Part shown: positions 15,426 through 36,719 of the stretch, piece after piece
Layout of the letters: every line of letters starts with the position of its first letter
Numbering within the stretch: position 1 is the first letter of the stretch
Origin: Bacteroidales bacterium
GTDB taxonomy: Bacteria; Bacteroidota; Bacteroidia; Bacteroidales; GCA-2711565
Assembly: GCA_028280405.1 (NCBI GenBank)
Contig: JANQLW010000022.1
Coordinates: 1 to 64,000, forward strand
Direction: 5' to 3'
Length of the DNA stretch: 64,000 nucleotides
The notes under the pieces: generated by a model
Told to the model about the DNA's origin: nothing
Database searches by the model: none
What the model saw: the letters and a program-made list of their open reading frames with translations, nothing else
Position numbers and translations under genes: made by a program

Positions 15426-16721
15426 TTATTTAATATCCATCATTACAAAAACTTCCAACTCTCTTTCTTCAATAGCTAAATCCAATCCATATTCTTTTAA
15501 TGCCTTTTTCATTTCTTTATAATCCGTAGTCTTGGCATTAATGTCAATATTGATTTTTCCTTCAATACCCGTTTCATCAAGTATGAATCTTATTTCCGGA
15601 GTTGATAAACAGTTTCTCAATTTTTTTATAAATCTGGTAAAAGGAATATTTTCATAATTTATAAAAAAGGCTGTCGCATTCGCCACTGGTTTACCTCCTT
15701 TGCTGGATAGTCTGTCCAACTTATGGTCATCTTTAATTTTTTTGAGAACATATACCTTAAGCTTTCTTTTTTCTTTTTTTATAGTATAATTGAAGGCTTC
15801 TTCCAAATCTTTTTGCATTATTTTTCTGGCCTCTTTCTGAAGTTCTTTATACTCCTTATTTTCATCATTTGCAGATATGATTTCATAGCAATATGGATTT
15901 GATAAATTTTCTTTATCCAGGACTTCTATTTTTGCTATTTGCCCTGATAAAGGAAAATCATAAACATACCGATAAAGGGATAAAGCATGGATATTAATAA
16001 ATCTCAATCCAAACGTTCTATCATCCTCCCGGGGTGCTTTAGTTTTTATATCCCGCTTGTATTCTTCCATTTTCCCGGATAATACAGACTGGAATTTTTC
16101 ACCAACATTTTTTCGTAAAATAGTATTGTTTAATTGTAATTTGCTAAAATCACTTACAAATTCAAATGACTTCTTATTTTCATTTCTTAGTTTTTCGAGT
16201 ACCTCAATCTCACCATTTAACACTGCTTTTATATGATCACTATTTACATCATCTTTGTCAGTAATAGCTATTAATTTCCCTTTGTAAATCCATATTTTCT
16301 TGTTCGTATTAAATAAATCTAAGATTTCGCTGGCTTCTGATTCACTTGCACTTGGCAAAATCAGATCCTGCTGCTTTTTTATCCGGGTAAAAATATTCTC
16401 CACATCTTCTGTTTTGTCTGAGGTAAAAGGTAAAATTTGAATTTTTCCGTCAAACTCTCTTTGTAGCTTATCCAACCTTGGAAAGTCTTTAATACAGGGG
16501 AATCACCACTTAGCCCAAAAATCAAGGATGACAAGCTTATCTTTGAGATTTTTCAACTCTATCTCTTTAGCAGGGTAGTTCACCATATTTGAAAATTTCA
16601 AATTAGGTACATCATCCCCTATTTTAAGTACTTTCTTTTCAAGATTATTTTGAGCAAACAATGTGATGGAAAATACGGTGAAAGCAAAAATTATTGTTTT
16701 TCTAAAAATTCCTTTTTTCAT
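15426..16721 (-). CDS. TlpA-like thioredoxin, in-frame TGA at redox Cys
   Basis: Read as one frame of 431 codons: a signal peptide (residues 1-23), then a TlpA/redoxin-like domain with LKNLKDKLVILDFWAKW, codon 73 TGA (16503-16505), then FPCIKDFPRLDKLQ. The usual motif at this place is W-C-x-x-C, so TGA replaces the N-terminal redox Cys and the second Cys remains. The frame is open on both sides: 72 residues before, 358 after. The long C-terminal part (about residues 170-431) is a domain I do not recognise. Related TlpA-like proteins often accompany SusCD loci in Bacteroidetes, and this gene follows susD by about 150 bases. Either the TGA is read as selenocysteine, or the gene is a recent nonsense mutant, or the base is wrong; I see no convincing SECIS hairpin and no sel genes in the window. 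Confidence 0.65.
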
Positions 16722-16835: not shown

Positions 16836-16864
16836 GTTCGACTGAGGCGGAGCCTCAGCCGAAC
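16836..16864 (-). terminator. Hairpin between susD and the TlpA-like gene
   Basis: GTTCG-A-CTGAGGC and GCCTCAG-C-CGAAC pair around GGA with a single mismatch. There is no good T-tract, so it is a processing hairpin or REP-type repeat, not a clear terminator. Confidence 0.45.
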
Positions 16865-16872
16865 AGCTATTT

Positions 16873-18306
16873 TTAATTGTATCCGGGATTTTGAGTTATG
16901 TTCAGGTTATTTTCGATCTCTGATTGTGGGATTGGATACAACATATCTGTTTCCTGCCAGTCTTTGGTGCCAAAGCCTGATAAGACTGCCCCGGCCTTGC
17001 CTGTTCGTATCAGGTCAAACCAGCGATGCCCCCATTCGGTAAAAAGTTCTATTCGTCTTTCATGCTCAATGGCCAATAGTAATGAAGCCTGATCAGTGGC
17101 TGTTGTATTTTCTAAACCGGCACGATTACGGATCATATTTAAATCGGCCTGTGCACCTGTAATATTTCCTTGTTGTGCACGAGCTTCGGCACGGATGAGG
17201 TATTGTTCAGCCAAACGTAATATGGTTGTATACTCCGTGATCGGGTCGTCCCATTTCGAGACCTTATATTTAAACGGGAAATAATATACAACTTCATTAT
17301 AGATCATACTATCTATCCAATTGCTTCTTCGGGAATCTCCATTTTCAAAACTTTTTACAAAATGATCTGTCAGTACTGCATACCTGGGTGTTGGAACTGG
17401 TATATAGGTACTGGCTTCCTCAGTCCTGCCATGTCCGTCTACAGTCATTAGTTGCCAGATGGCTTCCGAGTTGTTTTTTAAAAATACATTGTTCAATACT
17501 TCCAACTCATAAGTTCCTGTATTTTGGATGACTTTGGAAGCTTCCGTTTCTGCCTTTGCCCAATCTTTTGTATACAAATAGGTCCTTGCAAGGAGAGCCG
17601 TAGCGGCGAATTGATTGGGCTGTACCCGTTCCTCACCGGAATACGAATAATCTTCGGCCAACAAAGCTTGTGCATCTGTTAAATCCTGGATGATTTTTTC
17701 ATAGACAAGGGCAACCGCATCACGCTTTACCACATTATTGGCCAAATAATCAGTCGTACTGATATAAGGAATGTCTCCAAAAAGGTTCACCAGGTAAAAA
17801 TGGAAAAAGGCCCGTATGAACTTGGCTTCTCCGGTTAATTGCTTAGCGGTATTCTCTCTGATTTGATCAGAATTGGCCAGCCCTTCCAATACAGAATTGG
17901 CATAATAAATGTAGGTATAGGCTTCATCCCATAAGACGGTAATGTTTGTCATAACAGGGTTAAGACTATTATTATTTATATCAAGATAATCAATATTGCT
18001 ATTAAATTCGTAAACATTTAGCAGTTCATCTGAGGATAAAGCTGTTATAAAGGAAACACTACGGGTACCTCCATTCACAATTCTGGCCCCATTATTCATT
18101 TCCGAATAAATACCCTGAATGGCAGAAATGGCTGTCCCGTCATCAGCGAAAACGGTTTCACTTACGACTTCCGAAACGGGAGGAGCAATCTGCACAAAAT
18201 CATTGCATGAGCTGATTGTTAGTATTATAGAAAATAGCATTATCCAATTCCGGAAAGAGTTTAACTGAACAATAGTTTTCTTTGGATATATATATAATTT
18301 TTTCAT
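16873..18306 (-). CDS. SusD/RagB-family nutrient-binding lipoprotein
   Basis: Outer-surface lipoprotein that works with the SusC-type transporter encoded 11 bases upstream. The 477-residue protein has a lipobox (ILTISSC) near residue 34, the TPR-like SusD helical core (LWDEAYTYIYYANSVLEGL, AKFIRAFFHFYLVNLFGDIP) and the C-terminal RagB block (RLAEQYLIRAEARAQQGN, ERRIELFTEWGHRWFDLIRTG). Length is usual. No glycoside hydrolase or peptidase accompanies the pair, so the substrate cannot be inferred. Confidence 0.93.
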   Translation of the reverse strand: MKKLYIYPKKTIVQLNSFRNWIMLFSIILTISSCNDFVQIAPPVSEVVSETVFADDGTAISAIQGIYSEMNNGARIVNGGTRSVSFITALSSDELLNVYEFNSNIDYLDINNNSLNPVMTNITVLWDEAYTYIYYANSVLEGLANSDQIRENTAKQLTGEAKFIRAFFHFYLVNLFGDIPYISTTDYLANNVVKRDAVALVYEKIIQDLTDAQALLAEDYSYSGEERVQPNQFAATALLARTYLYTKDWAKAETEASKVIQNTGTYELEVLNNVFLKNNSEAIWQLMTVDGHGRTEEASTYIPVPTPRYAVLTDHFVKSFENGDSRRSNWIDSMIYNEVVYYFPFKYKVSKWDDPITEYTTILRLAEQYLIRAEARAQQGNITGAQADLNMIRNRAGLENTTATDQASLLLAIEHERRIELFTEWGHRWFDLIRTGKAGAVLSGFGTKDWQETDMLYPIPQSEIENNLNITQNPGYN

Positions 18307-18317
18307 TTCTTCTCTCT

Positions 18318-21300
18318 TTAAAATTTAACATTAATACCGGCAGTAATAAATCGTAATGGAGGTAATAATGCCCCGACAGCATTAGGATCCAATCCGATAT
18401 AATTTGTAATGGTAAACAGGTTTTGCCCCTGAACATAAAGCCTGAGGTTTTGAACGCCTAATTTCTTTATGACTTTTTTGGGGAAATCATAGGCTAAAGA
18501 AACACTTTGAAGACGAATATACGAGGCATCCTGTATGAAGTTTGTTCCTCTATAGGTTCGACCAAAACGATAAGGATCCCTTGCATCACGTGCCCATGAA
18601 TATTTCTGGATATCCGTAATGTCTCCAGGGTTTTGCCATCTGTTTTCATGATAAAAAGCAGGAAAATTTTTTCTTGTGCCGCCAGGCTGTCCAAAAATAC
18701 CCAAATAGCTCCGTCCTGTTTGTTTTTTGAATTGGAAGAAAAAGTCCAGTTGCAGACCTTTGTAGCTGATGGAATTGTTAAGCCCCCCATAGTAATCTAC
18801 AGAAATATTGTAGCCAGGTTGTAGATCTTCAGGAGAAGTAATTCTGCCGTCATCGTTCACATCTTCATATTCATACAAGCCGGTTTCAGGATCAACACCG
18901 ATATACCTAAAACCCTTACGGTTAAACATAGATTCCCCTACTACATATTCCTGATCAAACGGTGTGCCTTCTATACCAGGAAAAACGACCAGTTTATTGC
19001 GCTCAAAAGAAATGTTAAAGCTGGTAGTCCATTTCACATTTTTGGTATGGATATTTTGAGAAGAGATTTCGATCTCCAAGCCCTTATTTTGAACAGTGGC
19101 AGGAAAATTGGATTGAACAGAACCAAAGCCTGTAGTCCCGGCTAATGACTTTCCAACCAATTGATTGGAAGAACGGTTTCTATAATAACTGGCAGCCAGG
19201 TAGAGCCGTTCTTCAAAAAAACCCAACTCCAGGGCTAATTCAAATTTCCTGACCGTTTCCCATCCGAATTCAGGATTGGCAAGACGGGTCGGAATTAAGC
19301 CCACAGAAGTCACATAAGCGTATCTTGTAGGAGAATAGCTTTCCAAGTATTGGTAATCTCCGATCTGGTCACTACCGGTTACCCCATAACTGGCACGCAG
19401 TTTCCCGAAACTAAGAAAGCCCAGACTATTTTTAACAAAGCTTTCATTTGAAAAAATCCAGGCTGCTCCGATTGCTCCGAAATTGGCAAATTGTTTACCG
19501 GCTCCAAAACGGCTGGAACCGTCCCTTCTTCCGGTAAGATTTAAAATGTATTTTTCCTTATAATTATAATTAAGCCGTCCAAAAATGGCGTTATACTTGT
19601 ATTCTGAAAAACTGGTCCGGTTGATGTTTGTATTTGGAGCCGCTTGAATATTATCCAACAGGGCATCACTGCTGTACCCCCAAGCCGTTATACTTTCTTT
19701 TTCATTGGTTGAAGATTGAAAACTGATACCTCCTAAAAACCGGAGAACACCCGCTCCAATATTTTTTTTGTAGGCTATTTGTGGCTCTATACTCCAGGTT
19801 TCATTCCAGGCATTCCCAAAAACAGAACCCCCTGTTGGATCGTTTCTGGGATTTTGAGCGCTTATTGGGATTTTTCTTATTTCATCCATGCTTACATAGG
19901 AATAACCTGCATCCAACTTAAGATTTAATGCAGGCAGGATTTTATAGGCTAAGGACGTATTGGTGATCAAGTTGCGGGTGATCCCTTTATAAGCTTTTGA
20001 AAGTGCAGCATAAGGAGGGTCACCGGGCCCATACCTGTATTCCTCAAAATTATGATTTCCTTCTTCATCAAAAGGTTCCGGAGAATGAGCGACCAGTGTA
20101 AATGCCTGCCTAGCAAAAGCTGCTGTTGGTAAATTACTATTCTGGAATACATAATTGACCGAAAAAGAGGCATTGAGTTTCCGATCTATCGATTGATGAT
20201 TAAGCGTTAACAGACCGGCACCCCTTTTAAGTGCAAAGTCGCCCGGATATACCGTCGTTTCCTTATAATAAGATCCATTGAAAAGATAATTTGTAGTAGC
20301 ATTTCCCCCAGAGATGGATAATTGGGTATTTGATCTCTTAGAAGTACCGCCAATCAATTCTTCCTGCCAATCGGTATATCTACCCTGATCCCAAACAAAT
20401 AAGTCATGGAGAAAGGGTTTTATACGATCAGGGATAGGATCAAAACCAATACTTGCATAGGATTCTTTTATCATTTCAATGTACTGATCAGTCGTTAACA
20501 TATCTATTTTTTTCGGAACCTTTCCAAAGCTATAGGATTGATCCAGTGTAACCGTTGTTTTCCCGGATTTTCCCTTTTTAGTTGTAATCAACACAACGCC
20601 GTTCGCCCCTCTTGAACCGTAAATGGCCGTAGCATCCGCATCTTTTAATATTTCTATGCTTTCAATGTCAGCAGGATTAATATAATTGATTGGCAAAATA
20701 GTTGCGTTGTAAACATCACTACTTGCAAAAGGTGAATTTAAGGGATCGGAAGGATAAGGCACACCATTTACAATAAATAAAGGATCATTCCCATCATCTC
20801 TAATACTATTCCGTCCCCTGATTTGGATCTCAACACCACCTCCGGGAACCCCGCTTCTATCAAATATATTGACACCGGGCATTCTGCCCTGTAAAGCTTG
20901 CAAGGGAGTTGTTACCGTTTGATTTTCAATTTGTTTGGCATCTATTCTGGAGATATTTCCGGTTTTTTCTCTTTCCTTCACCGTATAATATCCTGCATTA
21001 ATGGTTACACCTTCCAATTCGGTGGCAGATTGTTCCAACGTAACATTAATGGTGGTCTTATTGTCTACTATAATTTCCTGTTTGGCAAAACCTACATAAG
21101 AAAATACCAATACTGTTTTTGAATCAGGAACTGTAATTGAATATTCACCATCAACATTAGTGGTTACACCCGTAAAAGTTCCCTTTATCATTACGGTAGC
21201 ACTGGGTAAAGCTTTACCTTCTGAGTCGGTCACTTTTCCACTAATTTCGATCTCGGACAAAGGTGTCAGCACAATGGTACTTTCAATAATGGCATAAGTA

Positions 21301-21629
21301 AACGGTTGTCCTTTGAAACACTGCTCCAGGGCTTCTTCAAGCGTAACATCTGAGAGGTCAATGGAAACAGGCTTTGCCTCTTTCATCATTGAAACAGTAT
21401 AGGCAAAGGTATAGTTGCTTTGCTTTTCAATTTGTGCAAAAATACTGCTTAAGGAAGCATTTTGTTCCGAAAGGCTGATCCTTTGAGCATAGGTTGCGGC
21501 ACTCAGGTGCAAACAAGCACCGAATAAGAGTAGAGCGGTCAGTTTCATCACACGAATGAGTTTTGTGAGTAACTTACGCTTTCGCGTATTTTCTTTTTTC
21601 ATACTTTTGTTTTGTTTTAAGTTAGACAT
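18318..21629 (-). CDS. SusC/RagA-family TonB-dependent transporter with STN domain
   Basis: Outer-membrane importer of 1103 residues. After the signal peptide (LLFGACLHLSAATYAQ) come an STN domain (about residues 50-125, SLSSIFAQIEKQSNYTFAY), a carboxypeptidase-regulatory-like domain (ISGKVTDSEGKALPSATVMI), a TonB plug (LQALQGRMPGVNI, DPLFIVNGVPYP, IEILKDADATAIYGSRGANG) and a long beta-barrel ending in RFITAGINVKF. The STN domain is the part that signals to the FecR anti-sigma factor, and the fecR and sigma genes lie just upstream. Translation may start at 21629 or at the ATG at 21602. Substrate unknown. Confidence 0.94.
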   Translation of the reverse strand: MSNLKQNKSMKKENTRKRKLLTKLIRVMKLTALLLFGACLHLSAATYAQRISLSEQNASLSSIFAQIEKQSNYTFAYTVSMMKEAKPVSIDLSDVTLEEALEQCFKGQPFTYAIIESTIVLTPLSEIEISGKVTDSEGKALPSATVMIKGTFTGVTTNVDGEYSITVPDSKTVLVFSYVGFAKQEIIVDNKTTINVTLEQSATELEGVTINAGYYTVKEREKTGNISRIDAKQIENQTVTTPLQALQGRMPGVNIFDRSGVPGGGVEIQIRGRNSIRDDGNDPLFIVNGVPYPSDPLNSPFASSDVYNATILPINYINPADIESIEILKDADATAIYGSRGANGVVLITTKKGKSGKTTVTLDQSYSFGKVPKKIDMLTTDQYIEMIKESYASIGFDPIPDRIKPFLHDLFVWDQGRYTDWQEELIGGTSKRSNTQLSISGGNATTNYLFNGSYYKETTVYPGDFALKRGAGLLTLNHQSIDRKLNASFSVNYVFQNSNLPTAAFARQAFTLVAHSPEPFDEEGNHNFEEYRYGPGDPPYAALSKAYKGITRNLITNTSLAYKILPALNLKLDAGYSYVSMDEIRKIPISAQNPRNDPTGGSVFGNAWNETWSIEPQIAYKKNIGAGVLRFLGGISFQSSTNEKESITAWGYSSDALLDNIQAAPNTNINRTSFSEYKYNAIFGRLNYNYKEKYILNLTGRRDGSSRFGAGKQFANFGAIGAAWIFSNESFVKNSLGFLSFGKLRASYGVTGSDQIGDYQYLESYSPTRYAYVTSVGLIPTRLANPEFGWETVRKFELALELGFFEERLYLAASYYRNRSSNQLVGKSLAGTTGFGSVQSNFPATVQNKGLEIEISSQNIHTKNVKWTTSFNISFERNKLVVFPGIEGTPFDQEYVVGESMFNRKGFRYIGVDPETGLYEYEDVNDDGRITSPEDLQPGYNISVDYYGGLNNSISYKGLQLDFFFQFKKQTGRSYLGIFGQPGGTRKNFPAFYHENRWQNPGDITDIQKYSWARDARDPYRFGRTYRGTNFIQDASYIRLQSVSLAYDFPKKVIKKLGVQNLRLYVQGQNLFTITNYIGLDPNAVGALLPPLRFITAGINVKF

Positions 21630-34227: not shown

Positions 34228-35535
34228 ATGGGAGTATTAACAGAAGAGATTAAACAAAGGGGTTTAGAAGTTTTAAGCTCTCATGGCAATAGTAAATTAT
34301 TAACGCATTTAAATAGTTGTGTCCATTGTGGACTCTGTTCTAATAGTTGTGTTTATTATAAAGTAGATGCCGACGAACACTACGTTCCGGCCAAGAAGGT
34401 AGATATCGTCGCATCTATTTATCGCAGGTACAACACATTTCTGGGGAAAACTTTACCTAAACTAACCAATGCACGTGATCTGGACGAAACTTCAATCGAT
34501 GAATTGGTAGATTTACTATTTGGTTCATGCACTATGTGTGGAAGATGTACATTGCATTGCTCTATAGGAGTGGATATAGGATATGTAGTTCGTAAAGGAA
34601 GAGAAATGCTTTCAGCTATGGGCTATGTTCCTAAAACCTTACAGGCTACAGTAGATGCTGCTATAGAAACCGGCAACAATATGAGTATTTCTACAGAAGA
34701 GTTCGTAGATACCCTTAAATGGTTGGAAGATGATCTTCAATATGAATTGGATGACGAAAATGCGAACATTCCTTTAAATGAAAAGAGTAAAAATGTTATG
34801 TACACTTTAAATCCAAGAGAACCCAAATTTTTCCCGCTTTCCATTTCAGCCATGGCTAAGGTATTTTATGCAGCCAAAGAAAGCTGGACCCTATCCACCG
34901 AAATGTACGATGTAACAAACTATGCATTTTTCTCAGGAAATATGGATGAAGCCAATATTATTGCCCAACGCATGGATACTGAAATGAAAAACCTGGATGC
35001 TACCAAATGTGTGCTTGCTGAATGCGGGCATGGTTCCAGGGCCTATAAATGGGAAGGGCCTAACTATTTAGGCCGGAAGCTTCCTTACGAAGTAACAACA
35101 TCTGTAGAATTATTGGCACAATATATACGTGATGGTCGTATCAAACTGGATCCGGAACGATTATCTGAAGTGGTAACTCTACACGATCCGTGTAACCTGG
35201 CTCGTTCAGGAGGAGTGATTGAAGAGCAAAGGTATATTTTAAGTCATGTGACAAAAAACTTTGTAGAAATGACCCCTCACGGGGTAGATAATTTTTGCTG
35301 TGGTGGTGGCGGTGGCCAATTAGCCATGAGTGAGTATAATGAACGCCGTATGAAAATTGCAAAGGTTAAAGCAGATCAGATTAAAAGTACCGGAGCAAGC
35401 ATCGTTGCGACTCCTTGCCATAACTGTGTAGATCAGCTAACTCAAATAGATCAACACTATAAATTGGGAGTAAAGATTATGACTTTGGCAGAATTGGTAG
35501 CCGATGCTTTAGTATTAGATGAAGAAAAGAAATAA
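34228..35535 (+). CDS. DsrK/HdrD-like Fe-S catalytic subunit
   Basis: A 435-residue cytoplasmic-side subunit. Two ferredoxin-type [4Fe-4S] motifs are visible (CVHCGLCSNSC and CTMCGRCTLHC). The second CCG domain is complete (DPCNLARSGG, then NFCCGGGGG, then CHNC), which builds the non-cubane catalytic [4Fe-4S] cluster of HdrB/D and DsrK. The first CCG domain is degenerate (CVLAECGHG). This pattern matches DsrK and TmcB, whose partners are the cytochrome b subunit and DsrC. It would reduce a DsrC disulfide/trisulfide or oxidise DsrC thiols. Direction cannot be told from sequence. Confidence 0.9.
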   Translation: MGVLTEEIKQRGLEVLSSHGNSKLLTHLNSCVHCGLCSNSCVYYKVDADEHYVPAKKVDIVASIYRRYNTFLGKTLPKLTNARDLDETSIDELVDLLFGSCTMCGRCTLHCSIGVDIGYVVRKGREMLSAMGYVPKTLQATVDAAIETGNNMSISTEEFVDTLKWLEDDLQYELDDENANIPLNEKSKNVMYTLNPREPKFFPLSISAMAKVFYAAKESWTLSTEMYDVTNYAFFSGNMDEANIIAQRMDTEMKNLDATKCVLAECGHGSRAYKWEGPNYLGRKLPYEVTTSVELLAQYIRDGRIKLDPERLSEVVTLHDPCNLARSGGVIEEQRYILSHVTKNFVEMTPHGVDNFCCGGGGGQLAMSEYNERRMKIAKVKADQIKSTGASIVATPCHNCVDQLTQIDQHYKLGVKIMTLAELVADALVLDEEKK

Positions 35536-35558
35536 GAACAATTAAGAATTAAAAAGAA

Positions 35559-36719
35559 ATGAGTAAACAAATATATTTAGATAATTCAGCAACTACTTTT
35601 CCAAAACCTGATGAGGTTTATAAATTCATGGATCATTTCTATCGTAATAATGGAGTAAGCCCGGGCAGATCAGGGTTTGATGCAGCGATTGCAGCAGAAG
35701 AAGTCGTGATGAGTACACGTAAAATGTTAGTTGAATTATTTAATGGAGATGATCCCGATCGACTAACCTTCAGTTATAACGCCAGCGACTCATTAAATAT
35801 GATTATTCAGGGCTTATCTGAAAAAGGGGATCATGTAATCACAACCATGTTAGAACATAACTCTGTATTGAGACCTTTGTACCATTTAGAGCAAGATCAA
35901 ACCATTGAAGTCACTTATGTTCCGTTTGATGAATATGGGTATGTGAGTCCTGAAGATGTTAAACAGGCGATACGTGATAATACCAAAATGGTAATTGTCA
36001 ATCATAGTTCAAATATTATCGGAACTGTTCAACCTATTGAAGAAATAGGTAGAATTTGCAAAGAAGCAGGAGTTTATTTTATTGTTGATGCCAGTCAGAG
36101 TGCTGGGATCATCCCCATAGACATCAAAAAAATGAATATAGATGTCGTAGTATTTACGGGACATAAGTGCTTAATGGGGCCTACCGGAATCGGAGGTTCT
36201 TATGTAAAAGAAGGCGTAAACATAAAAGGAACCCGTTTTGGGGGAACCGGAGTACGTTCGGCACAAAAAACCCATCTTGAGGAATTCCCTTATCGCTTGG
36301 AATGTGGAACCTTGAATCTTTTAGGTGTAGCTGGATTAAATGCCGGAATTAAATGGGTAATGAAACAAGGTATTGAAAACATCCATGAAAAGGAGATCAA
36401 GCTTTGGGATCGTTTAAGAAAAGGCTTACAGCAAATTGAAGGAGTAACCACTTACTGTGCACACGATACCCATAATCAGAATGCGGTATTAAGTTTTAAT
36501 ATCAAAGGATTTATTGCCGGAGATGTAGGCATGATGCTGGACGTGGATTATAATATAGCCAGTCGTACGGGATTACAATGTGCCCCACTTGTACATGAAA
36601 GAATTGGTACTGATGAATTACACGGAACCGTTCGTTTAAGTGCAGGACCATTCACTACCGAACAAGAGATAGATGCTGCGATTGAAGCCGTGAAAGAAAT
36701 TGCATCTATCCCAAGATAA
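35559..36719 (+). CDS. Class V aminotransferase, cysteine desulfurase family
   Basis: A 386-residue PLP enzyme beginning IYLDNSATTFPKPDEV. The PLP lysine is in VVFTGHKCLMGPTGIGG and the active-site loop Cys region is LQCAPLVHERIG, as in the short 'cysteine desulfurase family protein' clade (TIGR01977 type) that is distinct from IscS, NifS and SufS. The clade's activity is not established; it may be a cysteine desulfurase or selenocysteine lyase. It follows the DsrK-like gene by 23 bases and is the last gene of the operon, so it could supply sulfur to DsrC. Confidence 0.88.
   Translation: MSKQIYLDNSATTFPKPDEVYKFMDHFYRNNGVSPGRSGFDAAIAAEEVVMSTRKMLVELFNGDDPDRLTFSYNASDSLNMIIQGLSEKGDHVITTMLEHNSVLRPLYHLEQDQTIEVTYVPFDEYGYVSPEDVKQAIRDNTKMVIVNHSSNIIGTVQPIEEIGRICKEAGVYFIVDASQSAGIIPIDIKKMNIDVVVFTGHKCLMGPTGIGGSYVKEGVNIKGTRFGGTGVRSAQKTHLEEFPYRLECGTLNLLGVAGLNAGIKWVMKQGIENIHEKEIKLWDRLRKGLQQIEGVTTYCAHDTHNQNAVLSFNIKGFIAGDVGMMLDVDYNIASRTGLQCAPLVHERIGTDELHGTVRLSAGPFTTEQEIDAAIEAVKEIASIPR

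Follow-up and report, generated by a model that had tools for sequence, protein, structure and literature searches.

The nearest described kin of the gene considered here are two entries in PMC13188914 Table 1, the UxxC thiol-disulfide isomerase-like selenoproteins (cd02966, TlpA-like) and the Prx-like oxidoreductase selenoproteins (PF00578). Like these, the window gene encodes a thioredoxin fold with a probable selenocysteine (Sec, U) for the first redox Cys of a U-x-x-C motif and a bSECIS-like hairpin within the coding sequence; unlike them, its product carries a C-terminal DUF3738 domain, which is named in neither entry. The ResA/TlpA oxidoreductases (PDB 4nmu, 1jfu; NF002854) have the same domain and active-site position, whereas the window protein has a predicted Sec and not Cys, an extra DUF3738 domain and scores under the curated NCBIfam cut-offs. 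The published bSECIS model has a loop of 3-9 nt with G in the first two positions, a stem of 4-16 bp, a spacing of 16-37 nt and a free-energy threshold of <= -7.5 kcal/mol (PMC13188914). The Bacteroidetes were once reported to be without the Sec trait (PMC1794560). The window TlpA gene itself belongs to the known UxxC TlpA-like selenoproteins; more surprising are the selenoproteome of which it is part and the FG-GAP family described below.

The window, that is the whole stretch of 64,000 nucleotides that was analysed, holds a minus-strand frame from 16721 to 15426 (MKKGIFRKTIIFAFTVFSITLFAQNN...VILDFWAKW-TGA-FPCIKDFPRLDKLQ...) with the TGA as its sole interruption (Table 1). The sequence-only reading had placed this TGA exactly at the first redox Cys of a TlpA-like thioredoxin, as WAKW-TGA-FPC, and both the frame and the alignment bear this out: a phmmer comparison with solved structures places residue 73 opposite the first catalytic Cys in ResA (E 2.1e-11) and in thioredoxins. 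Its count of open codons, 72 before the TGA and 358 after it without a frameshift, also held, the frame running from an ATG to the TAA at 15426-15428. The protein combines W-[CU]-x-x-C with a PF00578 domain, by which a TlpA/ResA-like thiol:disulfide oxidoreductase is recognized, and a window-wide scan found no second internal TGA of this kind. AlphaFold2 on the single protein sequence gave a model with a pLDDT of 32, which was left aside. Standard annotation would break the gene into a stub of 72 residues and a fragment starting at TTG, and the active site would be lost.

Table 1. Features of the window locus and positions of FG-GAP loci elsewhere in the genome
Feature	Position	Strand	Basis or remark
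Putative Sec-containing TlpA/ResA-like thioredoxin-DUF3738 gene	15426..16721	-	431 codons + TAA
Probable signal peptide (MKKGIFRKTIIFAFTVFSITLFAQ)	16650..16721	-	Read from sequence by eye
AhpC-TSA (TlpA-like thioredoxin) domain, residues 34-127	16341..16622	-	Pfam PF00578, E 2e-10, 41.1 bits, cut-off 26
TGA, predicted to be read as selenocysteine, residue 73	16503..16505	-	Reading frame, paralogues, alignment to solved structures
TGT, resolving Cys of U-F-P-C motif	16494..16496	-	Sequence
bSECIS-like hairpin CUUUCCA-AGGU-UGGA(U)AAG	16467..16485	-	Loop 16475-16478, starting 25 nt after TGA
DUF3738 domain, residues 283-426	15444..15875	-	Pfam PF12543, E 2e-10, 41.5 bits
SusD-like gene, upstream of Sec gene	16873..18306	-	ORF; named from sequence
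SusC-like TonB-dependent receptor, upstream of Sec gene	18318..21629	-	ORF; named from sequence
FG-GAP Sec-Cys loci (putative)	L071:10465-12342; L082:4656-5774; L088-L099; L146:2084-3397	+; -;; +	Vicinal Sec-Cys motif

The absence of sel genes noted earlier is true of the window but not of the genome (3.87 Mb in 91 contigs, 95% complete, 1.9% contamination), where they sit elsewhere. The sequence-only reading had asked for a genome check for selA, selB, selD and tRNA-Sec, with a lack of sel genes as a refuting outcome, and all four are present, the full machinery expected of a bacterium that makes selenoproteins. A tRNA-Sec with anticodon UCA (60.2 bits, above the Rfam cut-off) sits just upstream of selA (539 bits, cut-off 268) on contig C91; selB (369 bits, cut-off 242) is ~11 kb from this pair on the same contig, and selD (443 bits, cut-off 125), on contig C51, is itself interrupted by an in-frame TGA, in HGAG-U-GCK. 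The stretch from selB to selA includes genes for a YedE selenium transporter (486 bits, cut-off 200) and for a member of the cysteine desulfurase family (TIGR01977). The selenium cluster as a whole (L082; C91:40500-58500) comprises selB, a putative FG-GAP Sec gene, genes for a Fer4_5 protein, a ModA-like binding protein and a NifB-like radical SAM protein, the TIGR01977 gene, YedE, selA and tRNA-Sec. In the window itself, at 34228-36719 (+), an Fe-S protein gene precedes a second TIGR01977 gene for a cysteine desulfurase (461 bits), which scores under the SclA selenocysteine lyase cut-off and could serve selenium delivery.

A search of the genome with the window protein returned three paralogues that match over the full length, are 60, 51 and 45% identical to it and all have a single TGA at the same catalytic codon, and more distant thioredoxin-like relatives likewise with one TGA, at the first redox Cys; because the site is shared in this way, the TGA is beyond chance. 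Together with PF00578 and local scans, this search gathered ~16 thioredoxin-like TGA genes, namely the window gene and those at C2:57188 and 50151, C42:8462 and 9789, C35:63457, C63:17855, C22:34240, C19:19574, C55:10374, C67:10794 and 12189, C77:5073 and 3872, and C91:34639 and 14752. U-x-x-C is found in all but C77:3872, a decayed-looking gene (L077 near 873) with U-G-P-Y and a lost frame. A further candidate, C69:78854, was dropped because its TGA, coming after a CKPC motif where the match ends, appears to be a genuine stop. Three paralogues of the same TlpA-DUF3738 architecture (L013, L014 and L016) are still in the genome with Cys at the Sec column; alignment of the in-frame TGA with the Cys of homologues is what a bacterial selenoprotein is expected to show.

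The hairpin after the TGA had been credited with about three pairs. This was an undercount: it has seven, CUUUCCA pairing with UGGA(U)AAG (one bulged U) around AGGU. Like the bacterial SECIS consensus (PMC13188914, Fig. 2A) it has a 4-nt loop, AGGU, with G second, a 4 bp upper stem (seven with the bulge) and 24 nt between UGA and loop, all within the ranges of the model; unlike the consensus, it has the bulged U on the 3' arm, and the free energy of the hairpin alone, as obtained for the identical sequence in paralogues, is about -4.0 kcal/mol where the threshold is -7.5. A 63-nt fold reaches -8.7, but as a different structure. Each gene was scored by the best-paired hairpin that has GU in its loop and lies 14-31 nt past the codon; five pairs or more were found in 13 of 16 Sec genes, 10 of 11 FG-GAP genes and 1 of 10 Cys homologues from the same genome. 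Of 1000 synonymous recodings none reached the observed total pairing in either Sec set (90 versus a recoding mean of 34 in the first; 68 versus 49 in the FG-GAP set, scored later under the same rule), whereas 900 of 1000 did so for the Cys set, although the GU loop rule was picked after the first hairpins had been viewed and the Cys and recoding comparison is therefore partly post hoc. Among the four close paralogues, identical codons encode 9 of 9 conserved residues in the hairpin region versus 26 of 99 elsewhere (Fisher p=1.8e-5); gene conversion could mimic such identity within these four, but would not account for what is seen in unrelated genes. In ten representative families, tabulated at the four innermost stem pairs, 39 of 40 cells hold a standard pair, and each of the four occurs as several pair types; since the hairpins were chosen for pairing, this shows compatibility rather than proof. 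By the same score, the glutathione peroxidase gene described below and the C35 gene have no GU-loop hairpin. Looking for a bSECIS after the TGA, a check that the sequence-only reading had put forward, thus returned a bSECIS-like hairpin which, on sequence grounds, is under constraint at synonymous sites.

The window TGA is almost certainly read as selenocysteine, a possibility raised from the letters alone and now supported by the genome's machinery, the many TGA paralogues and the constrained hairpin. The main alternative had been a Cys-to-stop mutation. A nonsense mutation or sequencing error, leaving a pseudogene or a wrong base, would find some precedent in decayed-looking paralogues elsewhere (a TAA, L075:2411, inside the C63 TlpA gene; L094, a short FG-GAP copy with an altered hairpin), but it fails to explain ~30 genes with one TGA exactly at a redox position, many of them paralogues sharing the same redox codon. 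It is also at odds with the 358 codons open past the TGA, the constraint on the downstream hairpin at synonymous sites and the presence of the sel genes, and we rejected it as highly improbable. Equally improbable, and likewise rejected, is a changed genetic code or altered tRNA by which TGA would be read as Cys or another residue: TGA does occur at Cys positions and few genes of the window use it as their stop (2 of 49), yet TGA still terminates genes, in-frame TGA is confined to redox sites with SelB-type hairpins after them, SelA, SelB, SelD and tRNA-Sec are all present, and the tRNAs among the Rfam hits have ordinary anticodons save for tRNA-Sec.

Sec UGA codons are generally decoded incompletely. 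Another possibility, compatible with selenocysteine as the main explanation, is that the UGA is a selenium-dependent switch, with low selenium stopping translation at codon 72 and turning the gene off and high selenium giving the full protein. Paralogues that share the architecture but have Cys could then take its place. Against such a switch, which we regard as unlikely, the 72-residue product would comprise a signal peptide and part of a thioredoxin fold.

Under the selenocysteine reading, we propose that SelA makes Sec-tRNA(UCA) with selenophosphate supplied by SelD, and that SelB would bring this tRNA to the ribosome and bind the short AGGU-loop hairpin just 3' of the UGA. Codon 73 would then be read as Sec to give a U-F-P-C active site in an exported TlpA/ResA-like thiol:disulfide oxidoreductase; both Sec insertion and periplasmic export are what we infer from sequence. 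Sec has a lower pKa than Cys and exchanges faster, and in the window protein it may act as the nucleophile that attacks disulfide bonds in envelope proteins, in a setting linked to SusCD.

The C2 paralogue has as its neighbour an FG-GAP repeat gene whose reading frame contains a TGA, in W-U-C-I-G-T-H-P-Q-F-V-D-L, and another FG-GAP TGA gene adjoins selB. A search of the genome with this family gave 12 matches, with TGA in each, and a scan of C91 added one, making 13 loci that share the motif U-C-x4-P-Q-F-V-D and a near-invariant bSECIS. Over 11 copies, codons 6-9 after the TGA depart from CCA CAG TTT GTG at a single codon, amid neighbouring codons that vary, and they form a hairpin, CCACA-GUU-UGUGG, present in nearly all 13 loci. 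One copy ends in a DsbD_N domain; together with the member beside selB this suggests a selenium-based periplasmic redox network. Directly after the FG-GAP Sec gene of L146 is a further candidate selenoprotein gene on C91 (3559-5025 (+), 489 codons) with TGA in ERC-U-GCLYHGG (C-U-G-C) and a DsbD_N domain at the C-terminus of its product. The 2026 inventory (119 families; PMC13188914) has no entry for the FG-GAP Sec-Cys proteins, and a literature search for FG-GAP or Bacteroidales selenoproteins found nothing relevant; the FG-GAP proteins are apparently an unlisted selenoprotein family. Relatives of the family were found in 0 of 59 related genomes at E<=1e-25 and 0 of 394 genomes of the phylum at E<=1e-20.

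With a glutathione peroxidase (L076:147-692 (+), PF00255 140 bits) that has TGA at the catalytic position, NTASK-U-GFT, candidate selenoproteins number ~32 (~16 thioredoxin-like, 13 FG-GAP, SelD, glutathione peroxidase and the DsbD_N protein; two or three decayed), a lower bound that is based on family searches and full scans of two contigs, C91 and C69. We consider it very likely that one Bacteroidota lineage has built a ~30-gene, apparently mostly exported selenoproteome by exchanging Cys and Sec repeatedly in proteins of the thioredoxin fold and by expanding the new FG-GAP family. In a tree of 52 thioredoxin domains, 8 Cys/Sec changes are needed, at least 6 of them forced by well supported branches; the window gene is part of a lineage-specific wave of such exchange.

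A clear tRNA-Sec (~53 bits or more) was found in ~40 of 393 genomes of the order. Five congeners gave no tRNA-Sec at E<=1e-9, and one of them has a match at 6.5e-8, a range where ordinary tRNAs score too. The close TlpA subfamily had no other member among the 393 genomes at E<=1e-30, with the best few candidates per genome scored, and a scan of a contig collection with the four paralogues gave two unrelated thioredoxins and no close homologue. Homologues of the C55 protein (TlpA-DUF4369) occur in most of 44 relatives, and none of the matches listed has a TGA. In two congeners without a clear tRNA-Sec, the C19 Sec protein has an orthologue with Cys, 51 and 48% identical to it over 167 residues. 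As there are congeners without a clear tRNA-Sec and one paralogue's orthologue has Cys, the Sec-for-Cys question is directly testable, and the lineage offers a natural experiment on why Sec replaces Cys in exported thioredoxins.

A SusCD pair precedes the Sec thioredoxin gene at the window locus and also in C2, a position which suggests a tie to loci for nutrient uptake at the outer membrane. In the window, a strong inverted repeat (GTTCGGCTGAGGC TCC GCCTCAGTCGAAC) at 16836-16864 lies in the gap from the SusD-like gene to the Sec gene; it has no T-run and is possibly an intercistronic element.
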